Virus record (IMG/VR): IMGVR_UViG_3300017917_001112
Span: 101,257-165,256 of that record
DNA from: a virus
DNA length: 64,000 nt
Strand: one strand, 5' to 3'
The notes under the pieces were generated by a model, which was not told where the DNA came from, made no database searches, and saw only the letters and a list, made by a program, of their open reading frames with translations. This document shows, piece after piece, positions 2,489 to 19,413 of the stretch. The translations under genes were made by a program, and so were the position numbers. Position 1 is the first letter of the stretch. Every line of letters starts with the position of its first letter.

Positions 2489-2728
2489 ATGTCAGACGAA
2501 ATTCAAAAAGAACAACACTCAAAACGCATCCATCAAAGAAAAGTAAAAGAGCGAAAACAAGTAAAGATTGCTAAGTCGCATGGTATTGAAGTAGATAGTC
2601 CTCATCGTTTTTCTAAACATCATGCAATGGATTGTGGTAACCCAGAGTGTATGTTGTGTGGTAATCCTAGAAAAACTTTTGGTGAGAAAACTATTCAAGA
2701 AAAGAGATTTAATCAGATAGATGAGTAA
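2489..2728 (+). CDS. small Cys/His protein, conserved phage type
   Basis: A 79-residue hydrophilic protein. The N-terminal half is a lysine/glutamine-rich helix. The C-terminal half carries CGNPECMLCGNPRK followed by an IQEKR motif, a small cysteine cluster that could bind zinc. I recognise this pattern from T4-like phage hypothetical proteins but no function is known to me. GGAGG at 2479-2483 places the start at ATG 2489 rather than the in-frame ATG 2477. The end overlaps the next gene by 8 nt, suggesting translational coupling. Confidence 0.75.
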   Translation: MSDEIQKEQHSKRIHQRKVKERKQVKIAKSHGIEVDSPHRFSKHHAMDCGNPECMLCGNPRKTFGEKTIQEKRFNQIDE

Positions 2729-3275
2729 TTTTAGATTTATAGAACATAATGTAGATGTAAGTAAAATCCTAAAACAATTGCAGGACAATCCTCAAGATTG
2801 GAAAGCAGTTTCTGGTTATGAAAGCACTGGTGGAGATAAAGATCCTTACGGATTTTTACCACTCACCATGGCAGTTGTAAGAAATCCTACGGATGATCCA
2901 AAAACAACAGAGATGCAAACAAACACACCAATGTTTACAAAATATTTTGAGATGATTCGTTGGTTGCGTTCTAGAGGAATTAAAGTAACTTCTCGTGCTG
3001 CTTTTTTTAAAATGGCAGTCGGTGACGAAGTTGGTCGCCATATTGATATTGGTACATACTATTTGACAAGAGATAGATTTCATTTATCCATTTCTGGTAG
3101 ATACTTGTATGAATGTGATGGCGAAGAACATATTATCGAACCAGGAACTTTCTTTTGGTTTGATAATAAAAAATATCACAGTGCTGTAAATATTGGTAAT
3201 TGTGATCGACTTACTTTTGTTTTCGATGTACCACATTCACATCACCATCCAAACAACAGTAAAAATTTTATTTGA
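2721..3275 (+). CDS. aspartyl/asparaginyl beta-hydroxylase-like 2OG oxygenase
   Basis: A 184-residue protein of the Asp/Asn beta-hydroxylase branch of the 2-oxoglutarate/Fe(II) oxygenases. The iron-binding pair is visible as the HID of GRHIDIGTYY and the distal histidine in the NKKYHSAVN segment, with an arginine near the C-terminus (NCDRLTFVFDV) for 2OG binding. The double-stranded beta-helix core spans roughly residues 85-178. In phages such enzymes are thought to hydroxylate protein side chains; the substrate is unknown. It overlaps the upstream gene by 8 nt. Confidence 0.8.
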   Translation: MSNFRFIEHNVDVSKILKQLQDNPQDWKAVSGYESTGGDKDPYGFLPLTMAVVRNPTDDPKTTEMQTNTPMFTKYFEMIRWLRSRGIKVTSRAAFFKMAVGDEVGRHIDIGTYYLTRDRFHLSISGRYLYECDGEEHIIEPGTFFWFDNKKYHSAVNIGNCDRLTFVFDVPHSHHHPNNSKNFI

Positions 3276-3347: not shown

Positions 3348-4007
3348 ATGAAACTATCTAAAGACACACAAAATTTACTTAAGAACTTTGCATCTATCAA
3401 CTTGAATTTGCTTTTGCGTGAGGGAAACAAACTCTCAACTATGAGCGAAAACAAAACAATCATTTCTGAAGTTACTGTTGCTGAACAGTTTCCGCAGAAT
3501 TTTGGAATCTATGATGTAAATGAATTTTTGGCTGTGTTGACATTGTTTAATGATCCCGATTTGGCATTCAGTAATGATGTTGTAACTGTCAAAGAAGGCA
3601 AGAATCAAATCGTTTACAAAGCAGCAGAAGAAAGCACTTTGAAAACACCAAGTAAGTCTATTCAATTCCCAGAAGCAGAGATTAATTTCTCACTGTCTGC
3701 TGCGGATCTAGAACACATTATCAAATCAGCAGGTATTCTTAAAGTTTCTGACGTATCATTTATCGGCAGAGATGGTAAGTTAGTTGCTCTGGTCATCGAT
3801 AAGAAAAATCCTCTAACAAATAAATTTGAAATTGATGTTGGCACAACAGATAAAACATTCCAAGCAAACATGAAAATTGAGAATTTTAAGATGTTGCCTG
3901 GATCGTATAATGTATCCATCGCAAAAATGAAAATCTGTCGTTTCAAATCAACAACCAATGATTTAACATATTACGTAGCAGTAGAATCTGATTCAACAGC
4001 TGAGTAA
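3348..4007 (+). CDS. 45: sliding clamp (T4 gp45-like)
   Basis: A 219-residue homologue of the T4 gp45 processivity clamp (228 residues in T4). It forms a trimeric ring that tethers the polymerase and other factors to DNA. The identification rests on overall sequence character (NEFLAVLTLFNDPDLAF, SLSAADLEHIIKSAGIL, FQANMKIENFKMLPGSY) and on its place directly before gp44, gp62 and regA, the classic T4 order. GAAGGAGAA upstream supports ATG 3348 over the in-frame start at 3315. This clamp is the presumed partner of the LDEFFA/LEDFFA tails found elsewhere in the window. Confidence 0.9.
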   Translation: MKLSKDTQNLLKNFASINLNLLLREGNKLSTMSENKTIISEVTVAEQFPQNFGIYDVNEFLAVLTLFNDPDLAFSNDVVTVKEGKNQIVYKAAEESTLKTPSKSIQFPEAEINFSLSAADLEHIIKSAGILKVSDVSFIGRDGKLVALVIDKKNPLTNKFEIDVGTTDKTFQANMKIENFKMLPGSYNVSIAKMKICRFKSTTNDLTYYVAVESDSTAE

Positions 4008-4023
4008 TTGAAGGGATTATATT

Positions 4024-4965
4024 ATGAGTCGTGATGAATTTTTATGGTGCGAGAAGTATCGCCCAAAAACTATCGATGAATGTGTTCTTCCGCAACAACT
4101 GAAGGATACTTTTAAAGAATATATAAAGAACGGACAACTTCCAAATTTTATTTTTTCTGGAAGCGCAGGTGTTGGTAAAACAACAGTTGCACGTGCATTG
4201 TGTAATGAACTTGGAGCAGATTATCTTTTTATCAACGGATCGGAAGAGAGAGGTATCGATGTATTACGAACAAAAATTAAAAGTTTTGCCTCGTCTGTTA
4301 GTCTCACAGAGGCAGGAGCAAAAGTCGTCATCCTTGATGAAGCCGACTATCTCACGCCAGACACACAAGCAGCCCTGCGTGCTTTTATCGAAGAGTTTTC
4401 CAACAACTGTAGATTCATCCTTACCTGCAACTTCAAAAACAGAATCATCACTCCACTCCACAGTCGATGCTCAGTAGTTGAGTTTCGTATTGAGTCGGCT
4501 GAGAAACCTAAGATTGCTGCGAATTTCTTTCGCAGGATTGTAGATATTCTCAACGCAGAGAGTGTTGAATCTGATAATAAAGTTGTAGCGAAAGTTGTTG
4601 AGACATTCTTTCCAGACTTCCGTAGAGTTCTAAACGAACTTCAGCGTTATTCTGTTGGTGGTCGTATCGACACAGGTATCTTAGCAAATCTTTCTGATGA
4701 ATCCATGAAAGAATTACTCGGTTATCTAAAATCCAAAGATTTTATGAAAGCAAGACTGTGGGTTGCAAAGAACAATGATATTGAGACATCTGTATTGTTC
4801 CGTAGACTTTATGACACAGCAGCAGATTTTCTTGAACAATCGTCTATTCCAGTTTTAATTTTAACTCTGGCAGATTATCAGTACAAGGCAGCATTTGTGG
4901 CTGATGTCGAGGTTAATAATGTTGCTGCGTTGATGGAGATTATTGCTAATTGTAAATTCAAGTGA
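4024..4965 (+). CDS. 44: clamp loader large subunit (T4 gp44-like)
   Basis: A 313-residue AAA+ ATPase that with gp62 opens the gp45 ring and loads it at primer-template junctions. Visible motifs are the N-terminal WCEKYRPKTIDE, Walker A GSAGVGKT (residues 46-53), Walker B VVILDEADYL, sensor 1 in LTCNFKNRI and the arginine finger SRC of LHSRCSVVEF. Length and motif order fit T4 gp44 (319 residues). It lies 16 nt after the clamp gene in the same operon. Confidence 0.95.
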   Translation: MSRDEFLWCEKYRPKTIDECVLPQQLKDTFKEYIKNGQLPNFIFSGSAGVGKTTVARALCNELGADYLFINGSEERGIDVLRTKIKSFASSVSLTEAGAKVVILDEADYLTPDTQAALRAFIEEFSNNCRFILTCNFKNRIITPLHSRCSVVEFRIESAEKPKIAANFFRRIVDILNAESVESDNKVVAKVVETFFPDFRRVLNELQRYSVGGRIDTGILANLSDESMKELLGYLKSKDFMKARLWVAKNNDIETSVLFRRLYDTAADFLEQSSIPVLILTLADYQYKAAFVADVEVNNVAALMEIIANCKFK

Positions 4966-10576: not shown

Positions 10577-13084
10577 ATGGAATTTTACACAAATGTTTTT
10601 CCCATGGGCAACAAGTTATGCGTCCGTGGGTACAGCAATGGTTTGCCGTACAAAGATAAGATAGATTTTCGCCCAACCCTTTACGTCTCGTCACCAAAGA
10701 AACATTATAGTGGCGAGATTTTTCGCACATTAGATGGTCAAGTTCTTTACGAAATCCAACCTGGATCTATCAAAGACACACGTGAATTTATTGATCGATA
10801 TAAGGGTGTTGAAAGTTTCCCTGTTTATGGTAACACAAATTACGCATACCAATATATCTCGGACACATATCGCTCAGAAATTAAATTTGATAAAGATTTA
10901 ATTAAGTGTTTCTCCATTGATATCGAAACAGCAACAGAAAGTGGTTTCCCTGATATTGAAACTGCTAATGAAGAGGTATTGTTAATTACATTAATGGACA
11001 ATAAGACAAAAGAGATTCATACTTTTGGTCGTAGTCCTTACACAGGAAACAAGGAAGTTATTTTCCATCATGTTGAAAATGAAAAACAACTTCTCGTTGA
11101 GTTTCTAACATTCTGGAAAGATAATTGTCCAGACATCGTTACTGGTTGGAATATTGGTTTCTTTGATATTCCATATCTAGTTAGACGCATCATGGTTTTG
11201 CTTGGCGAGTCACATGCAAAACAACTATCACCATGGGGTATTATCAACGAACGTCGTATTCATGTTAAAGGTAATGAAGAGATTACGTACGACATTGCTG
11301 GTGTTTCTGCACTTGATTATATTGATTTATACAAAAAGTTTACTTACTCAATGCAAGAATCTTATCGTCTTGATCACATTGCATTTGTTGAACTTGGCGA
11401 AAACAAACTAGACTATTCTGAGTATGATTCATTTAAAGATTTTTATACTCATGGTTGGAAGAAGTTTGTTGATTACAACATTCACGATACTGTTCTTGTT
11501 GACAAACTTGAAGACAAGATGAAATTGATTGAGTTGGCTATCGTTATGGCATATAACGCAAAGGTAAATTTCGATGATGTGTTTTCACAGGTAAGAATGT
11601 GGGATACGATTATCTACAATCACTTGCGTTCCAAAAACATTGTTATCCCAAACAAAACTAACAATGAGAAAGACAATGTTATTGAAGGTGCTTATGTTAA
11701 AGACCCACTTACTGGATTTCACAAGTGGGTTGTCTCATTTGACTTGAACAGTCTTTATCCGCATTTAATTATGCAGTATAACATTTCACCAGAGACTTTA
11801 ATCCAAGATTACAAACATATTGGTGGTGTTGGGTATTTCTTAGAACATGAGGAGCAAGGTGGATTTAAAGATCTAGATTATGCTTGTACAGCGAATGGTT
11901 ATTGCTATCGCAAAGACATCAAAGGATTTCTGCCTGAACTGATGGAAAAAATGTATGCTGACCGAAGTAAAGCAAAGAAACAAATGCTTGCGATTCAACA
12001 GCAGTATGAGAACACCAAGGACGCATCGCTAAAGAATGAGATTTCAAGATTGAACAATTTGCAGATGGCTTTGAAGATTGCTTTGAACTCTGCTTATGGT
12101 GCGTTGGCTAATCAATATTTCCGTTATTATGATAAACGCATGTCTGAGGGAATTACGACTTCTGGTCAGTTGTCTATTCGTTGGATCGCAAATAAATTTA
12201 ACGAATATTTTAACAAAGTAATGGGAACTGAGAAAGAAGATTATGTGATTGCTGTTGACACAGATTCTGTCTATCTTAGATTTGGACCATTGGTTGATTC
12301 TTTGTTTAGTCAGGAAGAACAGAAAGACAAAGATAAGATTGTTAAGTTTATTGACAAAATCTGTGAGGATAAAATACAGAAGTACATTGATAAGTGTTAT
12401 TCTGAATTGGCAAAGCGTCAAAATGCTTATGATCAGAAAATGATTATGAAGCGTGAAGTTATCGCAGACATGGGAATTTGGACTGCTAAAAAACGCTATG
12501 TTCTCAATGTGCATAACTCTGAAGGTGTGCAATATGCGCAACCCAAGATGAAGATTATGGGTCTTGAGATGGTTAAGTCTTCAACACCAATTGTTGTTCG
12601 CGACAAGTTGAAGGAAGCATTGAAGATTGTGATTGCTGGCGATCAACTAGAACTGCGTAAGTTTATCACTGATTATCGTAAACATTTCTATTCGTTGCCT
12701 GTTGAAGAAGTTGCTTTCCCAAGAAGTGTGAACAATCTTAAGGAATATTATGACTCTACTACCATTTATCGTAAATCGACACCGATTCATGTCCGTGGTG
12801 CTTTGATGTTTAATCATATTATCAAAGAAAGAAATCTTACGAACAAATATCAGCCAATTAAAGAGGGTGACAGAATTAAATTTATCTATCTTCGTGAGCC
12901 GAACACTATTCGTGAAGATGTAATTACATTCGCAAATGAATTACCAAAAGAGTTTGACCTACATAAATACATAGATTATGAGAAGCAGTTTGAGAAAGTT
13001 TTCCTTGACCCATTAACCGCAATTATGGATTCTATCGGATGGACAGTTGAAGAAAAGAACACTCTTGAAGATTTCTTCGCATAA
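10577..13084 (+). CDS. 43: family B DNA polymerase (T4 gp43-like)
   Basis: The replicative polymerase, 835 residues (T4 gp43 has 898). The proofreading domain shows Exo I DIET (115-118), Exo II NIGFFD (192-197) and Exo III YNIHDTVLVD (300-309). The polymerase domain shows motif A DLNSLYP (389-395), motif B K-x3-NSAYG (500-508) and motif C DTDS (561-564). The protein ends NTLEDFFA, in the position where T4/RB69 gp43 carry the peptide that binds the gp45 clamp. Two other proteins in the window share this tail. No intein or frameshift is visible. Confidence 0.97.
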   Translation: MEFYTNVFPMGNKLCVRGYSNGLPYKDKIDFRPTLYVSSPKKHYSGEIFRTLDGQVLYEIQPGSIKDTREFIDRYKGVESFPVYGNTNYAYQYISDTYRSEIKFDKDLIKCFSIDIETATESGFPDIETANEEVLLITLMDNKTKEIHTFGRSPYTGNKEVIFHHVENEKQLLVEFLTFWKDNCPDIVTGWNIGFFDIPYLVRRIMVLLGESHAKQLSPWGIINERRIHVKGNEEITYDIAGVSALDYIDLYKKFTYSMQESYRLDHIAFVELGENKLDYSEYDSFKDFYTHGWKKFVDYNIHDTVLVDKLEDKMKLIELAIVMAYNAKVNFDDVFSQVRMWDTIIYNHLRSKNIVIPNKTNNEKDNVIEGAYVKDPLTGFHKWVVSFDLNSLYPHLIMQYNISPETLIQDYKHIGGVGYFLEHEEQGGFKDLDYACTANGYCYRKDIKGFLPELMEKMYADRSKAKKQMLAIQQQYENTKDASLKNEISRLNNLQMALKIALNSAYGALANQYFRYYDKRMSEGITTSGQLSIRWIANKFNEYFNKVMGTEKEDYVIAVDTDSVYLRFGPLVDSLFSQEEQKDKDKIVKFIDKICEDKIQKYIDKCYSELAKRQNAYDQKMIMKREVIADMGIWTAKKRYVLNVHNSEGVQYAQPKMKIMGLEMVKSSTPIVVRDKLKEALKIVIAGDQLELRKFITDYRKHFYSLPVEEVAFPRSVNNLKEYYDSTTIYRKSTPIHVRGALMFNHIIKERNLTNKYQPIKEGDRIKFIYLREPNTIREDVITFANELPKEFDLHKYIDYEKQFEKVFLDPLTAIMDSIGWTVEEKNTLEDFFA

Positions 13085-13088
13085 AAAC

Positions 13089-13117
13089 TTGCCTTTAAAT
13101 ACGACATATACTAAAAT
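13089..13117 (+). promoter_or_regulatory. sigma70-like promoter, weaker
   Basis: TTGCCT (13089-13094), a 17-bp spacer and TAAAAT (13112-13117). It lies between the polymerase stop and the gene at 13143 and would serve uvsX and gp41. Confidence 0.6.
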
Positions 13118-13142
13118 TATATTAGAACACTAGGAGAAAGAC

Positions 13143-13388
13143 ATGACACAAGAAAATGAATTTCCGTCAATCGAAGACGTAGAAATTAAAACAACATCAT
13201 TGAACAACTTGCCCCCAAAAGTAATTTGTGAAAAACATGGAGAACTTAATGACGCATATGTGTTTAGAGTAAACATGCCAGAGTTTGGATATGAAAAAAA
13301 AACATATTGTTTAGTATGCGCAATCGAGTATCTTTCTATGATTGCTAATGAGGTTACATTCGAAGAACGTGAGGGAGAAACAAAATGA
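13143..13388 (+). CDS. small Cys-rich protein before uvsX
   Basis: An 81-residue acidic protein. Residues about 29-60 hold C-x2-HGE and YCLVCAIEYL, giving a possible C/H/C/C zinc site. No specific family is recognised. TAGGAGAAAGAC upstream is a good ribosome site and its end overlaps uvsX by ATGA, so the two are likely co-translated. A role tied to recombination is only guilt by position. Confidence 0.7.
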   Translation: MTQENEFPSIEDVEIKTTSLNNLPPKVICEKHGELNDAYVFRVNMPEFGYEKKTYCLVCAIEYLSMIANEVTFEEREGETK

Positions 13389-14443
13389 GTTTTCTAAAAG
13401 ATATTGTAAAGGAGCTTGATAATGAATATGCGGGACTGGCTGATGATGGTGTTGTTGGTGATACATCTAATTTTATCGACACTGGTTCTTATACCCTTAA
13501 TGCTTTGCTCTCTGGTAGCATCTTTGGTGGTCTACCTGGGAACAAAGTTACAGCTTTGGCTGGTGAGTCTTCCACAGGAAAGACATTCTATGCTCTTGGG
13601 ATTGCGAACAATTTTCTTCGAACTGACGACAAGGCTGGAGTCATTTACTTTGAAACAGAAGGAGCGTTGACTAAAGATATGCTCGCTGAGCGTGGCATTG
13701 ATACTAAACGATTTATGATTGTTCCTGTGTCAACTGTTCAAGAATTTAGAACTCAAGCATCTAAGATTCTAGATGCGTATGAAAAAACATCAAAGAAAGA
13801 TCGCCCACCATTGATGTTGTTTTTAGATTCTCTTGGTATGCTCTCTACTTCTAAAGAAATGGAAGATACACTTGAGGGTAAAGATACTCGTGATATGACT
13901 CGTGCTCAATTGATTCGTGGCGCATTCCGTGTTCTTTCATTGCGTCTTGCTAAACTCGATGTCGCTATGGTTGTTACGAATCACACATATGCAGTTGTTG
14001 GTGCTTATATGCCAACCAAAACTATGGGTGGTGGTGACGGATTAAAGTATGCTGCTTCAACGATTGTTTTTCTTTCTAAGTCTCAGGACAAAGATGGAAC
14101 TGAAGTTGTTGGTAATATCATTAAATGTAAACTTGAGAAATCTCGTTTTACACGTGAGAAGTCTATGGTTGAAACTAAACTTTCCTTTACTAAAGGATTA
14201 GATCGTTATCATGGTCTAGCAGATTTGGCTGTTGAAGCAGGAATCTGGAAATCGCAAGGTGGACGAATTGAAGTACATGATGGTAGAAAAGTTTTCGGTA
14301 AAAACATTGCAAACAATCCTTCTGACTTCTTCACCGAAGACATCCTAAAGCAACTTGACATTTACTGTAAATCAAAGTATAATTATGGTTCAGATGATGT
14401 TGTTCAACAAGAAGAAGTAGAGGAAGAATTTAATGAGAATTGA
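13385..14443 (+). CDS. uvsX: UvsX RecA-like recombinase
   Basis: A 352-residue RecA-family strand-exchange protein (T4 UvsX has 391). Walker A GESSTGKT is at 60-67, the Walker-B region is LMLFLDSLGML, and a glutamate-bearing YFETEGALT segment follows the first helix. VVTNHTYAVVGAY and MGGGDGLKYAASTIVFL match the DNA-binding-loop and core region of UvsX. It would coat ssDNA and drive recombination-dependent replication. It overlaps gp41 by 11 nt; its C-terminus is acidic. Confidence 0.92.
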   Translation: MSFLKDIVKELDNEYAGLADDGVVGDTSNFIDTGSYTLNALLSGSIFGGLPGNKVTALAGESSTGKTFYALGIANNFLRTDDKAGVIYFETEGALTKDMLAERGIDTKRFMIVPVSTVQEFRTQASKILDAYEKTSKKDRPPLMLFLDSLGMLSTSKEMEDTLEGKDTRDMTRAQLIRGAFRVLSLRLAKLDVAMVVTNHTYAVVGAYMPTKTMGGGDGLKYAASTIVFLSKSQDKDGTEVVGNIIKCKLEKSRFTREKSMVETKLSFTKGLDRYHGLADLAVEAGIWKSQGGRIEVHDGRKVFGKNIANNPSDFFTEDILKQLDIYCKSKYNYGSDDVVQQEEVEEEFNEN

Positions 14444-15815
14444 AAATCAAATTTTTACTAATTTGATAACTCAGGAAGCGTATGCAAGAAAGGTTATTCC
14501 TTTTTTACTTCCTGAGTATTTCATGGATCGTAGCGATCGTGTGATTTATGAGGAATATAACAAATTCTTTTCGCAGTACAACACAACTCCAACTGTTGAT
14601 GTGCTGAAGATTGAGATTAGCAACAGAAAAGATATTTCTGAAGAAGAAGTAAAAAAAGTTAACGAAACACTTGATACTCTTAGCGATGAACAAACTAATA
14701 TTGATTGGATAACAGACAGCACAGAGAAATTTTGTAAAGACAAGGCAGTTTACAATGCTATCATCAACTCTATCAAAATTATTGAGGGCAGGGATAAAAA
14801 TCACAACCAAGATGCGATACCTTCTCTACTTTCTAAAGCATTGGCTGTTACTTTTGATTCTCACGTGGGTCATGACTATTTGGAAGACAGTGATGCTCGC
14901 TATGATTTTTATCATAGGGTTGAAGAGAAAATTCCTTTCGATATTGACTTGCTCAACAAAATCACGAACGGAGGACTCTCAAAGAAAACTCTAAACATTA
15001 TTCTTGCAGGAACAGGTGTTGGTAAATCTTTGGCTATGTGTCATTTCGCAGCATCATCTTTGCTTCAGGGTAAAAATGTGTTATACATAACTATGGAGAT
15101 GGCTGAGGAGAGAATCGCAGAGCGTATTGATGCCAATTTGCTAGAGTTGACTATGGATTCTTTAAAGATGGTTGAGAAACGTGTTTTCGATGCTAGACTT
15201 GAAAAGATTCGCAATAAAACACATGGTAAGTTGATTGTTAAAGAATATCCTACTGCTTCTGCCCACGCAGGACACTTCCGTGCTTTAATTGAAGAACTGC
15301 GTATGAAGCGTGATTTTACACCTGATATTATTTTTATTGATTATCTTAATATCTGTTCTTCTCAGCGTCTTCGTATGGGAGCAAATGTAAACTCTTATAC
15401 ATATATTAAAGCGATTGCTGAAGAGTTGAGAGGATTGGCAGGTGAATATAAAGTGCCTTTGGTGAGCGCAACGCAAACTACTCGTTCTGGTTATGCTAAC
15501 ACAGATCCAGGACTTGAAGATACTTCAGAGTCATTTGGTCTGCCAGCAACAGCAGATTTGATGATTGCGTTGATTGCCACTGAAGAACTTGATCAAATGA
15601 ATCAGATTATGGTTAAACAATTGAAAAATCGTTATTCTGATCCAAACTTCTATAAGCGTTTTGTTGTTGGCGTTGATAGAAAACAAATGAGATTATACAA
15701 TGTTGAAATGAGTGCTCAACTACATATAGAGGGACAGGGAACTGTTTCTGATGATACGCCACTATTTGACGCAACGAAATTTGGCAAACGCATTAAGAGT
15801 GAAGCATTCGAATAA
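14433..15815 (+). CDS. 41: replicative DnaB-like helicase (T4 gp41-like)
   Basis: A 460-residue hexameric 5'-3' helicase (T4 gp41 475). The N-terminal ~150 residues are the small helical domain. Walker A LAGTGVGKS is at 191-199, Walker B in IIFIDYLNIC, and a DnaB-type SATQTTRSGY loop follows. The C-terminal ERRE-like region (LKNRYSDPNFYKRFVVGVD) is intact. It unwinds the lagging-strand template and recruits the primase encoded at 34.8 kb. Translation overlaps the uvsX end. Confidence 0.93.
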   Translation: MRIENQIFTNLITQEAYARKVIPFLLPEYFMDRSDRVIYEEYNKFFSQYNTTPTVDVLKIEISNRKDISEEEVKKVNETLDTLSDEQTNIDWITDSTEKFCKDKAVYNAIINSIKIIEGRDKNHNQDAIPSLLSKALAVTFDSHVGHDYLEDSDARYDFYHRVEEKIPFDIDLLNKITNGGLSKKTLNIILAGTGVGKSLAMCHFAASSLLQGKNVLYITMEMAEERIAERIDANLLELTMDSLKMVEKRVFDARLEKIRNKTHGKLIVKEYPTASAHAGHFRALIEELRMKRDFTPDIIFIDYLNICSSQRLRMGANVNSYTYIKAIAEELRGLAGEYKVPLVSATQTTRSGYANTDPGLEDTSESFGLPATADLMIALIATEELDQMNQIMVKQLKNRYSDPNFYKRFVVGVDRKQMRLYNVEMSAQLHIEGQGTVSDDTPLFDATKFGKRIKSEAFE

Positions 15816-15825
15816 GGAGAAAAAA

Positions 15826-17187
15826 ATGGTTCAGGTTATTGTAGCAGACAAACTTTATGATTCAGAACATCTACTTGGTATGTTCGTTGACGAATCGCAT
15901 TATGATATTCTTATTGAAGAAGATACGGATTGTTATCTCCCAGCTGATTGCGATATCGCAACACAAGCGAATTGTGATAAAGATTGTTCTGCTTGTGATA
16001 TTGGAGCCGATGAGCGTAGAATAGCATTTAAGTTTAGAAAGAACTTCTTCTCAAAAGAAGAACAAGAACAAGCATATGTTGGTTTGCGTGAAGCAGCAGT
16101 TCGTACAGAAAATCGTGGATTGGCTTCAGGAATTAAAGCAGGAACATCAGTAACAGGCGAAGGACGTGAGTGGGTTACTAATTATCAAGAAGAAATGATT
16201 AATGGAATTCTATCCTCAAGAACTGCTCAGTTGGTTGATGGGGATATTATTTTAGAAATTCGAGAAAAATATCCAACACCAGAATCACGTTTGAAAGCAT
16301 TGGGTTCTGGTAAGAACAATGTTTGGGTTATCTCACGTTTCCGTGGTAAATTTAATTTTGATGAATGGGTTGATTCAATCATTCCTTTAGATCGCGAAGC
16401 AAGAGCAAAAGCAACTGAAGAAGTTATGACAATGATTAGCGAAACTTCTTATGGCAATCCAGTTGACTCAGGTATCGCAGGTTGGTTTGACAGATATCCA
16501 CGTATTCCTTATGGTAGAGCAACAACATATACAAGAGATAATCCAGAAAAATTTGCTATGGCGTACCCATTTCTACAACATTTGGCAAAAGGATTTAAGG
16601 AGTTACTACCACAAAGATATGCTGCGCAAAAAGCAGCAACAGATAAAATTGATCCAAGATTCGTAATTCCTGAGACACCATTTACTACTGTAACTGTTAA
16701 CAAAACATTTAGAACTGCAGCGCATCGCGATGCTGGTGACTTTTCTGATGGTCTATCTAATTTGCTTACACTTTCTAATGATGGTAGATATACTGGTGGT
16801 TATTTGATTTTTCCAGAGATTCGTATAGCAGTTAATGTACGACCAGGAGATTTGCTTCTTGTGAATAACCATGAGGTAATTCATGGAAACACACCGATTG
16901 TTTGTGAAGAAGGTTCTGAGCGTGTTTCGCTGGTTGTTTATCTTCGTGAAAACATGTTAGAACTTGGTTCTTATGAATATGAAAATTCAAGATTCGAATT
17001 TGTTGAGTCACGCAGATTGAACAAAGAACATCCACTTTGGAAAAAATTGTGGAATGGTGTTTCTCCAGGAATGTGGGAAGAACAAGAATGGTACGACTTT
17101 TTAAAATCACGTCCGAATGGCGAACAAATGCTTGCGAAGTATCACCCGAAAGCACTTGAAGCATCTCTAGATGAATTCTTTGCTTGA
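15826..17187 (+). CDS. 2OG-Fe(II) oxygenase, Tet/JBP-like
   Basis: A 453-residue 2-oxoglutarate/Fe(II) dioxygenase. The metal triad is H300 and D302 (TAAHRDAGD) with H353 (NNHEVIHGNTP); R366 in ERVSLVVYLREN is a good 2OG ligand. The VTVNKTFRTAAHRD start, the YTGGYLIFP strand and the GDLLL...HGNTP end resemble the Tet/JBP class that oxidises methylated pyrimidines or thymine in DNA. An N-terminal cysteine cluster (C36, C42, C50, C54, C57) may bind a metal. The C-terminus is SLDEFFA, like the polymerase tail. AAGGAG fits ATG 15826. It lies after gp41 and two genes before a glycosyltransferase. Tet/JBP assignment is moderate; the 2OG core is secure. Confidence 0.8.
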   Translation: MVQVIVADKLYDSEHLLGMFVDESHYDILIEEDTDCYLPADCDIATQANCDKDCSACDIGADERRIAFKFRKNFFSKEEQEQAYVGLREAAVRTENRGLASGIKAGTSVTGEGREWVTNYQEEMINGILSSRTAQLVDGDIILEIREKYPTPESRLKALGSGKNNVWVISRFRGKFNFDEWVDSIIPLDREARAKATEEVMTMISETSYGNPVDSGIAGWFDRYPRIPYGRATTYTRDNPEKFAMAYPFLQHLAKGFKELLPQRYAAQKAATDKIDPRFVIPETPFTTVTVNKTFRTAAHRDAGDFSDGLSNLLTLSNDGRYTGGYLIFPEIRIAVNVRPGDLLLVNNHEVIHGNTPIVCEEGSERVSLVVYLRENMLELGSYEYENSRFEFVESRRLNKEHPLWKKLWNGVSPGMWEEQEWYDFLKSRPNGEQMLAKYHPKALEASLDEFFA

Positions 17188-17212
17188 CATTAATCTATAT
17201 ACATAGTAAAAT
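17184..17212 (+). promoter_or_regulatory. sigma70-like early promoter
   Basis: TTGACA (17184-17189), a 17-bp spacer and TAAAAT (17207-17212). The -35 overlaps the oxygenase stop codon. Confidence 0.8.
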
Positions 17213-17231
17213 ATAGTTTTGGAGATTTAAT

Positions 17232-18065
17232 ATGGCATGGCAATCAAGTTATTGGTCTTGTTCTAAATTTGCTGATTGGCTTCGTGGAACACCGAAGCCA
17301 GAAGCAGAAACAAGTAAAGGATGGCGTCTTTGGAGAGAAGCATCTGAGAAAGAACATCCATTTCGTTTTTGGTTGGCGGAAGAAGGACTTGATCACATTC
17401 AGGACTTCGTAACTTATCCAAGCAGAAAAGTAAACGATTTAATGTATTATTTGAATAATCGGTTTGTTACTAAAACGCATGCACTAACATCTCACCCTCG
17501 TGATATTCCTCGTGGCGAATGGCGAGATGTTGGTAATCGTTTTCTCCCCTGCCTGTTCAATGAACTTGTTGATTTTGTCGAGGTCGAACAAGCATGGCAT
17601 CACTGTATGTGGGATGACAAAGCACGAAAAGAATTTAAAGTGCCTTGGACACGCAGGGGTTTTTTACGTCTTAGAACTTGGCGTTGTCCAGAAGCAGGGT
17701 TGTCTTATCTGAATTGGGCAAAGGATTTGACTAATGCTGAGTTTCTTGATGAAGATAAGAAACATGAAGCAGAGTTGACACATCAAGCACTTGCTGCTCG
17801 CGAGATTCTAGAACTCTATCACTGGTGGAAAGAAGTTTATTCAAAACGTCTAGATCCATACGATTCTAGTGGTTGGTCTGCTATTTGCGAGAGAGAACGC
17901 AAAGAAGGACGTGACTTACTTGACATGGAAGACAGAAACGAAACAGAGCGTGAAGAGAGAAATAATTCTCTAGATCTTCTACGTAAAATAGAAGAAGAAT
18001 ACGAAAAGGAAGACGAAGAAATGATGATTCGTCTTATCAAAATCCGTCAATCACTGTGGACTTAA
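17232..18065 (+). CDS. Trp-rich protein between oxygenase and glycosyltransferase
   Basis: A 277-residue protein unusually rich in Trp and charged residues (SSYWSCSKFADWL, GWRLWREAS, FRFWLAEEGLDHIQDF, EVEQAWHHCMW). The last 60 residues are a highly charged coiled coil (RNETEREERNNSLD then KIEEEYEKEDEE). I recall similar hypothetical proteins in aquatic T4-like phages but know no function. Its place between the Tet/JBP-like oxygenase and the glycosyltransferase, with 4 nt to the latter, suggests the same pathway. GGAGATTTAAT precedes the ATG. Confidence 0.75.
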   Translation: MAWQSSYWSCSKFADWLRGTPKPEAETSKGWRLWREASEKEHPFRFWLAEEGLDHIQDFVTYPSRKVNDLMYYLNNRFVTKTHALTSHPRDIPRGEWRDVGNRFLPCLFNELVDFVEVEQAWHHCMWDDKARKEFKVPWTRRGFLRLRTWRCPEAGLSYLNWAKDLTNAEFLDEDKKHEAELTHQALAAREILELYHWWKEVYSKRLDPYDSSGWSAICERERKEGRDLLDMEDRNETEREERNNSLDLLRKIEEEYEKEDEEMMIRLIKIRQSLWT

Positions 18066-18069
18066 ACAT

Positions 18070-19413
18070 ATGAAAATCTTAATGGTAATGCATACCTTCA
18101 ATAACTTTGGAGGAATTATCAATCACTGCGAACATTTAATGGCAGGATTAAAAGAAATTGGTCACGAAGTAAATTTCGCATATCTTAAAGGCAACTCTAC
18201 TGTAAGACCAGTTGAAATTCCTTCTAAACTTGCCGAAGGTTATGAGATTGGTATTGGTTCAGGTTATCCAGTGCACCAAGGTGATGGATGGATTGCGCCA
18301 TACTATTCTTACAAAGTAAAAGAATCTGTTGACAAATTTGTTAAGACTGCCAATGAGCATGATATTGTGATTTGGCAGTCTATTTTTGGATTTAAAAACA
18401 AAGACACTGAGAAATACAAGGGTTGGTTGCCAATGGTTGAACAAGTCAAGGCAAAACAAGTTGTAATTATTCACGATGCTAATCTTAAAAAATTATATCC
18501 ATGGATTTCTCTTTATGAAAAACATTTCGCTGGTCTTGCTTGCGTTCATCCTGCAGCATACGATTCAGCAGACTTTATGTCCACACCTCGAGCGTTAATT
18601 TTGAACCCTCAGGATATTGATGGCGTACCACCTACTCCAGAGTTTGCTGGTCGCGAAAACAAAATCTTGTCAATACAGACATTCAAACGCTGGAAGCGTG
18701 TGGACGACCTTATTCGTGCTGTTCCTTACATGAAAAATGTCAAGACATTGGTAGGTGGTTATGGTATTGAGGCAGCATATATGATGTCGAAAGACAAGTG
18801 TAAAGACGAATACTTCGCAACAACACAATATGATCCAGACGTAACACCTGACCGAGAAGGAAAGCGTATTTGGGAAAACGCTGAAAACTCAGGAAATTTT
18901 GAATATCTCGGTTTTATTTCTGGAGCGAAACGTGATGAGATTCTACAAACATCTAAGTTTTTGGTTGACCCTTCTTGGAGCAATACTTTTGGTGAGCACT
19001 TCAATCGTGTTGTCGTGGATGCAATGCGGATTGGGACTGTGCCCATTGCTGTAAATTTTGGTGTTTCCAACAACGAAGAAGGTAATGGAGTTTTGTTGAA
19101 GGCTGGTGAACACTATTGTATGCTCCGCAAGGATTTTACTCCAAAACAATATGGAGAAGCAATCGCTAACTTCTGTAATATGAGCGAATCCGACTACAAA
19201 CGTATTCAGCTAAATAACTACGAACTAATCAAAAAGTTTGATCGAAAGGTAGTTGCTCAGCACTATATCGACTTGGCTATGGGTAAGGAAACAGGTTATC
19301 TAAACGAACTCAGAACCAAGACGAACCATGATCCATCTATTGTCCGAAATTCCATTAAAATGTTCGAAGAACACTTCGAACAGGCATCAGACTTGGACGA
19401 ATTCTTCGCATAA
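18070..19413 (+). CDS. GT4-like glycosyltransferase
   Basis: A 447-residue GT-B glycosyltransferase. The N-terminal Rossmann domain begins KILMVMHTFNNFGGIINH, typical of GT4 with the FGG acceptor loop. The C-terminal donor domain shows IQTFKRWKRVDDLIRAVPYM, EYLGFISGAKRDEIL, then FGEHFNRVVVDAMRIGTVPIA, the usual acidic donor-binding helix. It transfers an unknown sugar. Following a Tet/JBP-like oxygenase, hydroxymethylated DNA bases are a plausible acceptor; surface polysaccharide is the alternative. The C-terminus is DLDEFFA, matching the oxygenase tail and close to the polymerase tail. Confidence 0.85.
   Translation: MKILMVMHTFNNFGGIINHCEHLMAGLKEIGHEVNFAYLKGNSTVRPVEIPSKLAEGYEIGIGSGYPVHQGDGWIAPYYSYKVKESVDKFVKTANEHDIVIWQSIFGFKNKDTEKYKGWLPMVEQVKAKQVVIIHDANLKKLYPWISLYEKHFAGLACVHPAAYDSADFMSTPRALILNPQDIDGVPPTPEFAGRENKILSIQTFKRWKRVDDLIRAVPYMKNVKTLVGGYGIEAAYMMSKDKCKDEYFATTQYDPDVTPDREGKRIWENAENSGNFEYLGFISGAKRDEILQTSKFLVDPSWSNTFGEHFNRVVVDAMRIGTVPIAVNFGVSNNEEGNGVLLKAGEHYCMLRKDFTPKQYGEAIANFCNMSESDYKRIQLNNYELIKKFDRKVVAQHYIDLAMGKETGYLNELRTKTNHDPSIVRNSIKMFEEHFEQASDLDEFFA

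Follow-up and report, generated by a model that had tools for sequence, protein, structure and literature searches.

Why should three proteins of unrelated fold, encoded in the same phage genome, end in nearly the same short peptide? The question is raised by a 64,000-bp window (bases 101,257-165,256 of the 165,256-bp virus record IMGVR_UViG_3300017917_001112, labelled G000) of a T4-type phage of 165 kb, in which a family B DNA polymerase ends in NTLEDFFA, a Tet/JBP-type DNA oxygenase dependent on 2-oxoglutarate (2OG) and Fe(II) ends in SLDEFFA, and a glycosyltransferase ends in DLDEFFA. An earlier note, made from the sequence alone, had proposed that the two DNA-modifying enzymes ride on the sliding clamp of the phage by means of this tail, and the three endings are indeed present where it had placed them (polymerase ...VEEKNTLEDFFA; oxygenase ...KALEASLDEFFA, ending at 17187; glycosyltransferase ...FEQASDLDEFFA). 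That the proteins are of unrelated fold is likewise borne out by their Pfam matches, which are to DNA_pol_B, Tet_JBP (PF12851, E=1.4e-23, above the cut-off) and Glycos_transf_1, respectively.

On the two strands of the record, the ending L[DE][DE]FFA belongs to these three only among all open reading frames (ORFs) that are 40 aa or longer, and when the 196 ORFs with a length of 100 aa or more are shuffled, 0.0005 L[DE][DE]FF[AG] tails are expected per genome. The tail was also looked for on the other replication proteins (UvsX, DnaB, gp44, gp47 and the clamp) and was found on none of them. The residue at position -3 before the motif is K in the polymerase, E in the oxygenase and A in the glycosyltransferase, and the three peptides (LEDFF, LDEFF and LDEFF) contain the hxxaa core of the canonical PCNA-interacting-protein (PIP) box, i.e., L/I/M and then two aromatic residues. 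One more genuine gene, for a baseplate hub protein (G000:24723-25433), has the looser ending GIDSFF; it was rejected as a clamp client, the ending lying inside Pfam domain PF12322. In all ten related genomes compared below, this gp26-like protein ends in G[ILM]xxFF, a look-alike of the clamp tail within a structural domain.

By analogy with T4, we propose, as judged from sequence, that the shared tail is very probably the sliding-clamp-binding motif (SCBM) of this phage, a PIP-like [ST]-L-[DE]-x-[FL]-F located at or near the C-terminus. The end of T4 gp43, read from the T4 genome (EEKASLDFLFG), aligns with the end of the window polymerase; T4 gp55 ends in SLDFLYEAND, which contains the clamp-binding motif SLDFLY; and the gp55 homologue of this phage (G000:83814-84374, outside the window, identified by phrog_234) has NLESFLGDENGS with the motif NLESFLG, a few residues ahead of its C-terminus. 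The motifs of T4 gp43, gp55 and gp33 are demonstrated gp45-binding epitopes that are freely interchangeable and are carried on divergent flexible linkers (PMC2988020; PMC7892883); the earlier note had likewise pointed to the tails of T4/RB69 gp43 and of gp33/gp55. The RB69 gp43 peptide was crystallised in the gp45 pocket (Tyr39, Ile107, Phe109, Trp199, Val217, Arg32 and Lys204; PMC3012046).

The window encodes the corresponding partner: the clamp gene, which the earlier note had placed at 3348, has an ATG start codon there, is of the gp45 type by phrog_223 and Pfam, and its product matches the RB69/T4 gp45 structures 1b77/1b8h/1czd over the whole length (phmmer E~1e-29). Pocket positions 39, 107, 109 and 217 remain hydrophobic in the clamps of these phages (I39, I105, F107 and Y209 in the window clamp), and the alignment around pocket position 204 is ambiguous. 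The features that mark an SCBM are found here in combination, namely a peptide resembling the C-terminus of the polymerase of the same phage, a divergent linker of variable length, and a gp45-type clamp encoded in the genome.

The tail is conserved among homologues. The earlier note had proposed a survey of these and would have given up its idea had the oxygenase and glycosyltransferase homologues been without the tail; the idea withstood this check, in that about 90% of the distinct oxygenases and glycosyltransferases keep the tail, which is present in its strict form in 123 of the 136 distinct oxygenase ORFs and in 34 of the 37 distinct glycosyltransferase ORFs, two of the three exceptions among the latter being cut or frameshifted fragments; many apparent tail-less polymerases are truncated or interrupted ORFs as well. 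The tail persists at 48% identity in DLP6 and down to 42% identity in C48C1. In the alignments, conservation is at least 90% at L448 and F452 of the oxygenase and at L442 of the glycosyltransferase, whose F446 is invariant; the residues right before the motif are variable (high entropy), with spacing that shifts among homologues, the entropy at the motif positions being partly a matter of construction because these positions served for registration. In Melnitz, which has a clamp, a very divergent oxygenase ends in GNLNDFLGE and the polymerase in TTLEDFFG. AlphaFold gives good cores for the oxygenase and the glycosyltransferase and a predicted local confidence (pLDDT) that drops to ~53-71 at the tails, where the models draw a short terminal helix. 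TET2 and NgTet1 are the fold matches of the oxygenase core, and the HxD...H iron site of the oxygenase (H300, D302, H353) is invariant among homologues. The glycosyltransferase model (predicted template modelling score, pTM, 0.85) has Foldseek matches to PimA, BshA and T4 AGT (GT4-type GT-B), and its sequence matches PF00534/PF13692 only, with no match to the T4 alpha-glucosyltransferase family (PF11440).

The same ending is spread over other DNA-modifying families. Clustering, with function ignored, of every ORF with 60 residues or more from ten related phages, the isolates DLP6, Cr30 and C48C1 among them, gave 408 clusters that are found in at least two of the ten genomes; among the larger proteins, only the polymerase (10/10), the oxygenase (8/10), the glycosyltransferase (5/5) and the gp26-like baseplate hub protein have a consistently conserved tail, and the two oxygenases without a proper one show a near-miss, LGDEWFA, and a truncation in Cr30. 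Other tailed proteins in relatives proved to be DNA modifiers, namely the TET-associated glycosyltransferase (TAGT, PF20691), ADDT (PF18724) and the D12 N6-adenine methyltransferase (PF02086). In the fetched contigs, the tail is present in 33 of 37 TAGTs (both TAGT queries pooled), in 37 of 47 D12 methyltransferases and, strictly, in 17 of 62 ADDT proteins, which also have many GLExFM/GIERFM variants, compared with 40 of 6,640 other ORFs; for oxygenases, glycosyltransferases and D12 methyltransferases combined, the figures are 227/257 vs 50/6,979 other ORFs, with the reservation that related environmental T4-type phages are the source of most tailed enzymes and that near relatives are counted.

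Since some family queries had been picked for having the tail, a choice that tells against the counts as support for clamp binding, a motif-only scan was made for DNA encoding LE[DE]FFG-stop in 80 viral contigs. The scan gave 82 sites. Those classified are 72 polymerases, four Tet/JBP oxygenases, of which one is of the Melnitz type, one glycosyltransferase, one baseplate protein, one non-gene and four further ORFs, which encode two methyltransferases (one for C5-cytosine, one of the N6/N4 kind), a glucosyltransferase of the AGT family and a homing endonuclease. Beyond the families of the window, the tail is present in six more: TAGT, the T4-type alpha-glucosyltransferase, ADDT, and the D12 N6-, N6/N4- and C5-methyltransferases.

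Additional ORFs with such endings were seen. The homing endonuclease (GIY-YIG/NUMOD; L631:4643-5455, minus strand) ends in PTLEDFFG, lies beside a polymerase ending in STLEDFFG and is possibly clamp-recruited; a 166-aa protein with a weak PD-(D/E)XK nuclease match (L426:5206-5706) ends in GLGEFFG and is a candidate clamp client; and ADDT-related ORFs of ~340 aa (L045, L046, L052, L054, L071) have GLEALW-type variants of the motif at the end.

Tet/JBP oxygenases and TAGTs are also present in small phages without T4-type replication, and their endings can be compared with those of the T4-type phages. The tail is found in none of the 64 Tet/JBP oxygenases sampled from phages without detectable gp45 (21 HTVC112P-like, 42 L284-like and that of S-CBWM1), and the oxygenases of phages Donny and Altadena are tail-less too. 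A gp45 search identified a clamp in 20 of 26 contigs with tailed enzymes vs 0 of 23 with tail-less ones, contigs that may be incomplete, and in 0 of 5 isolate genomes (S-CBWM1, HTVC112P, P12024L, Donny and Altadena). Per locus, oxygenase and TAGT are both tailed in 64 cases, neither in 42 and mixed in 3 (near-duplicate contigs counted). Among TAGTs that are ~70% identical, those of small phages end in ...TGNAELRLKDMR-stop and those of T4-type phages in ...TGNAELRLKDMRKEVGNTLESFFG, the tail-less proteins stopping exactly where the tail would begin. In a tree of 60 TAGT sequences, from the building of which the last 12 residues were left out, the well-supported branches require the tail state to have changed five times or more. 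The tailed rows within or beside tail-less groups (L203, i.e., DLP6, as well as L293 and L048) come from phages with a T4-type polymerase, and no T4-type polymerase was found in the contigs of their tail-less neighbours.

Several observations weigh against the assignment of the tail as an SCBM. The leading glutamine of the canonical PIP box (Qxxhxxaa) is absent from all three tails, likewise from T4 gp43; Arg32 and Trp199 of the RB69 gp45 pocket are not retained in the clamps of these phages; and the conserved, similar ending of the baseplate hub protein has another cause. In Caulobacter phage Cr30 (L008:16001-17329), the oxygenase tail is shortened to GATLF, most of it being lost, and the TAGT retains DLSKLF, a partial natural loss in a phage kept in the laboratory. 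T4 alpha-glucosyltransferase was examined for an LxxFF C-terminal tail and has none (its end is FKEQFDIITK), which counts here since this enzyme binds gp45, as discussed below. Among the Straboviridae, Aeromonas 65, avDM6, avDM12, Aeh1 and Pectobacterium phage POP12 have a clamp and a tail-less TAGT-like protein, and the Dam of cyanophages P-RSM1, S-RIM14 and P-RSM6 is tail-less despite the clamp; because of these phages, we dropped the stronger claim, namely that every phage with a clamp should have the tail. Phages of the T4 group make their hydroxymethylcytosine ahead of replication, and the need for the tail may differ in them for this reason.

As to what the tails do, they could bind the clamp but chiefly where it stays on the DNA once replication is over or where it is part of late-transcription complexes, in which case modification would be tethered and yet post-replicative. 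We give this version of the clamp-binding reading a substantial chance, if one somewhat short of even: gp45 is a mobile late-transcription activator through the same motif on gp55 and gp33 (PMC2988020), and T4 glucosylation is post-replicative, with an alpha/beta ratio governed mainly by expression and not by gp45 binding (PMC13216743). On the other side, the oxygenase and glycosyltransferase genes adjoin those of the polymerase, uvsX and the helicase in the same direction, an arrangement that fits action during replication, albeit not as proof. Binding to the beta clamp of the host, or to another host protein, would draw on the fact that bacterial beta-clamp motifs are similar in kind, being likewise short and hydrophobic and containing a leucine and an aromatic residue. 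The Tet/JBP and TAGT homologues of phages without a detectable clamp of their own, which would be expected to use that of the host, are tail-less, however, and the tail matches that of the phage polymerase, so we regard a host target as very unlikely.

The baseplate hub protein, with its G[ILM]xxFF inside a domain, illustrates that such endings can be structural, and the short terminal helix of the AlphaFold models would be consistent with a structural C-terminal element unrelated to clamps; nevertheless, the same tail is found on many unrelated folds, on linkers variable in sequence and length and with pLDDT as low as given above, and it is cleanly missing from TAGT homologues ~70% identical to tailed ones. 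A degradation signal would be expected to be fixed, whereas these endings differ (FF, FFG, FFA, FFS, FFV), and neither role strikes us as at all probable. Chance resemblance, or shared ancestry within one phage lineage with no current function, could be suspected from the origin of most tailed enzymes in related environmental T4-type phages, near relatives counted, but it is hardly credible in view of the minute number of tails expected per genome, the retention at low identity, the repeated state changes in the TAGT tree and the tailed clamp phages (DLP6, L293, L048) standing beside tail-less rows. Clamp recruitment, as suggested in the earlier note, is accordingly favoured on four counts, i.e., homology to the T4 gp43/gp55 motif, conservation among homologues, spread to unrelated DNA modifiers and absence from close homologues where gp45 is not detectable; the docking itself stays a prediction. 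The second step of the earlier note, by which modification would be coupled to replication or to late transcription, is a conjecture, and the note is thus supported in part.

With clamp binding as the preferred reading, the oxygenase and the glycosyltransferase would use their flexibly linked tails to dock on the gp45-type clamp, in the hydrophobic pocket that the tails of the polymerase and gp55 would use as well. The clamp, loaded at primer ends, trails the polymerase and has three pockets per trimer, and docking on the same clamps or on those left behind would create a high local concentration of both enzymes on freshly replicated phage DNA, at or behind the fork. There, the oxygenase would turn a base methyl into hydroxymethyl, which the glycosyltransferase would then cap with a sugar. 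No gene for a C5-cytosine methyltransferase (PF00145) or for a thymidylate synthase/hydroxymethylase (PF00303) was found in G000, and therefore thymine (as for JBP) and host-made 5-methylcytosine are both possible as the substrate base.

The features concerned are collected in Table 1. In the window they form a T4-type replication block on one strand, which runs from the clamp and clamp loader through polymerase, UvsX, helicase and oxygenase to an orphan gene and the glycosyltransferase. The program-made oxygenase ORF begins at 15751, and homologues favour the start at 15826 chosen in the earlier note. The orphan gene product, of 277 aa, could be part of the modification pathway. Just upstream of the clamp, at 2721-3275 of the window, an aspartyl/asparaginyl hydroxylase-like 2OG enzyme (PF05118) is encoded.

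Table 1. Features of the window (positions counted from its first base) and tailed proteins in other viral contigs (contig label before the colon).
Feature	Position	Strand	Basis
gp45-type sliding clamp, proposed docking partner	3348..4007	+	phrog_223 E=1.5e-67; Pfam gp45-slide_C
Clamp loader large subunit, gp44-like	4024..4965	+	sequence; BLAST match to annotated clamp loader region of phage DLP6
Family B DNA polymerase, gp43-like	10577..13084	+	phrog_262 E=0; Pfam DNA_pol_B
Polymerase C-terminal tail NTLEDFFA, putative clamp-binding motif	13058..13081	+	kept in 10/10 genomes; aligns with T4 gp43 EEKASLDFLFG
UvsX-like recombinase, without tail	13385..14443	+	phrog_97; tail in 0/65 homologues
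DnaB-like replicative helicase, without tail	14433..15815	+	phrog_19; tail in 0/60 homologues
Tet/JBP-type 2OG-Fe(II) DNA oxygenase	15826..17187	+	PF12851; AlphaFold model; iron site
Oxygenase C-terminal tail SLDEFFA	17164..17184	+	123/136 distinct homologues have tail
277-aa protein between oxygenase and glycosyltransferase, without tail	17232..18065	+	no Pfam or PHROG match
GT-B fold glycosyltransferase, GT4-like; fold also resembles T4 alpha-glucosyltransferase	18070..19413	+	PF00534; AlphaFold; Foldseek
Glycosyltransferase C-terminal tail DLDEFFA	19390..19410	+	34/37 distinct homologues have tail
C5-cytosine methyltransferase with tail	L586:4555-5394	-	motif-only scan
N6/N4 methyltransferase with tail	L651:6300-7307	-	motif-only scan
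AGT-family glucosyltransferase with tail SLEDFFG	L653:2499-3851	-	motif-only scan

The proposal bears on how phages modify new DNA ahead of host restriction enzymes. We consider it a possibility, though a tentative one, that the portable clamp tail is a general recruitment code in phages of the T4 superfamily, with polymerase, oxygenase and glycosyltransferase held together on one gp45 trimer as an assembly line behind the fork, and that the tail can be used to find unknown modifiers. The LE[DE]FFG-stop tail is usable as a search key in viral contigs and, given that the tail-only scan gave polymerases and mostly DNA modifiers, unknown tailed proteins are good new candidates for DNA modification.

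Clamp-binding motifs on the phage polymerase and on transcription factors, and one clamp-binding DNA glucosyltransferase, are already known. A shared clamp tail that is repeatedly gained or lost across eight DNA-modifying families was not found in the open-licence literature searched, and on the present sequence evidence it would be a known motif put to a new and general use. The SCBMs of T4 gp43, gp55 and gp33 have the same acidic-hydrophobic L-[DE]-x-[FL]-[FY], which follows a variable linker and lies at the C-terminus or close to it, on polymerase and non-polymerase proteins alike; the difference is that here the motif, with a predicted role in binding, is on DNA-modifying enzymes. Phage hypermodification clusters with a Tet/JBP oxygenase and a glycosyltransferase (including TAGT, PF20691) share the PF12851 oxygenase with a glycosyltransferase gene nearby and differ in that no PF00145 gene was found in this genome; no description of a clamp-binding tail on such clusters was found in the same literature.

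The closest phage precedent is T4 alpha-glucosyltransferase, which Sommer et al. in 2004 reportedly found to bind gp45. The contact has been confirmed by pull-down and is reportedly not the main determinant of the alpha/beta glucosylation ratio or of glucosylation levels (PMC13216743). Like the window enzyme, for which the contact is predicted, it is a phage DNA glycosyltransferase of the GT-B fold class that touches the clamp; unlike it, the T4 enzyme lacks an LxxFF tail and acts on hydroxymethylcytosine made before replication, and the window enzyme, which has an oxygenase as its partner, falls outside the AGT Pfam family. The tail is present, as SLEDFFG, on a distant AGT-family relative encoded in contig L653. 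Among eukaryotes, the PIP box of DNMT1 recruits a DNA base-modifying enzyme, that of maintenance methylation, to new DNA via PCNA (PMC9690074), and this system has in common with ours a clamp-binding peptide, here predicted, on a DNA-modifying enzyme, the enzyme being unrelated and the clamp of another family. If true, the clamp-borne modification machinery proposed here would be to phages what DNMT1 on PCNA is to eukaryotes.

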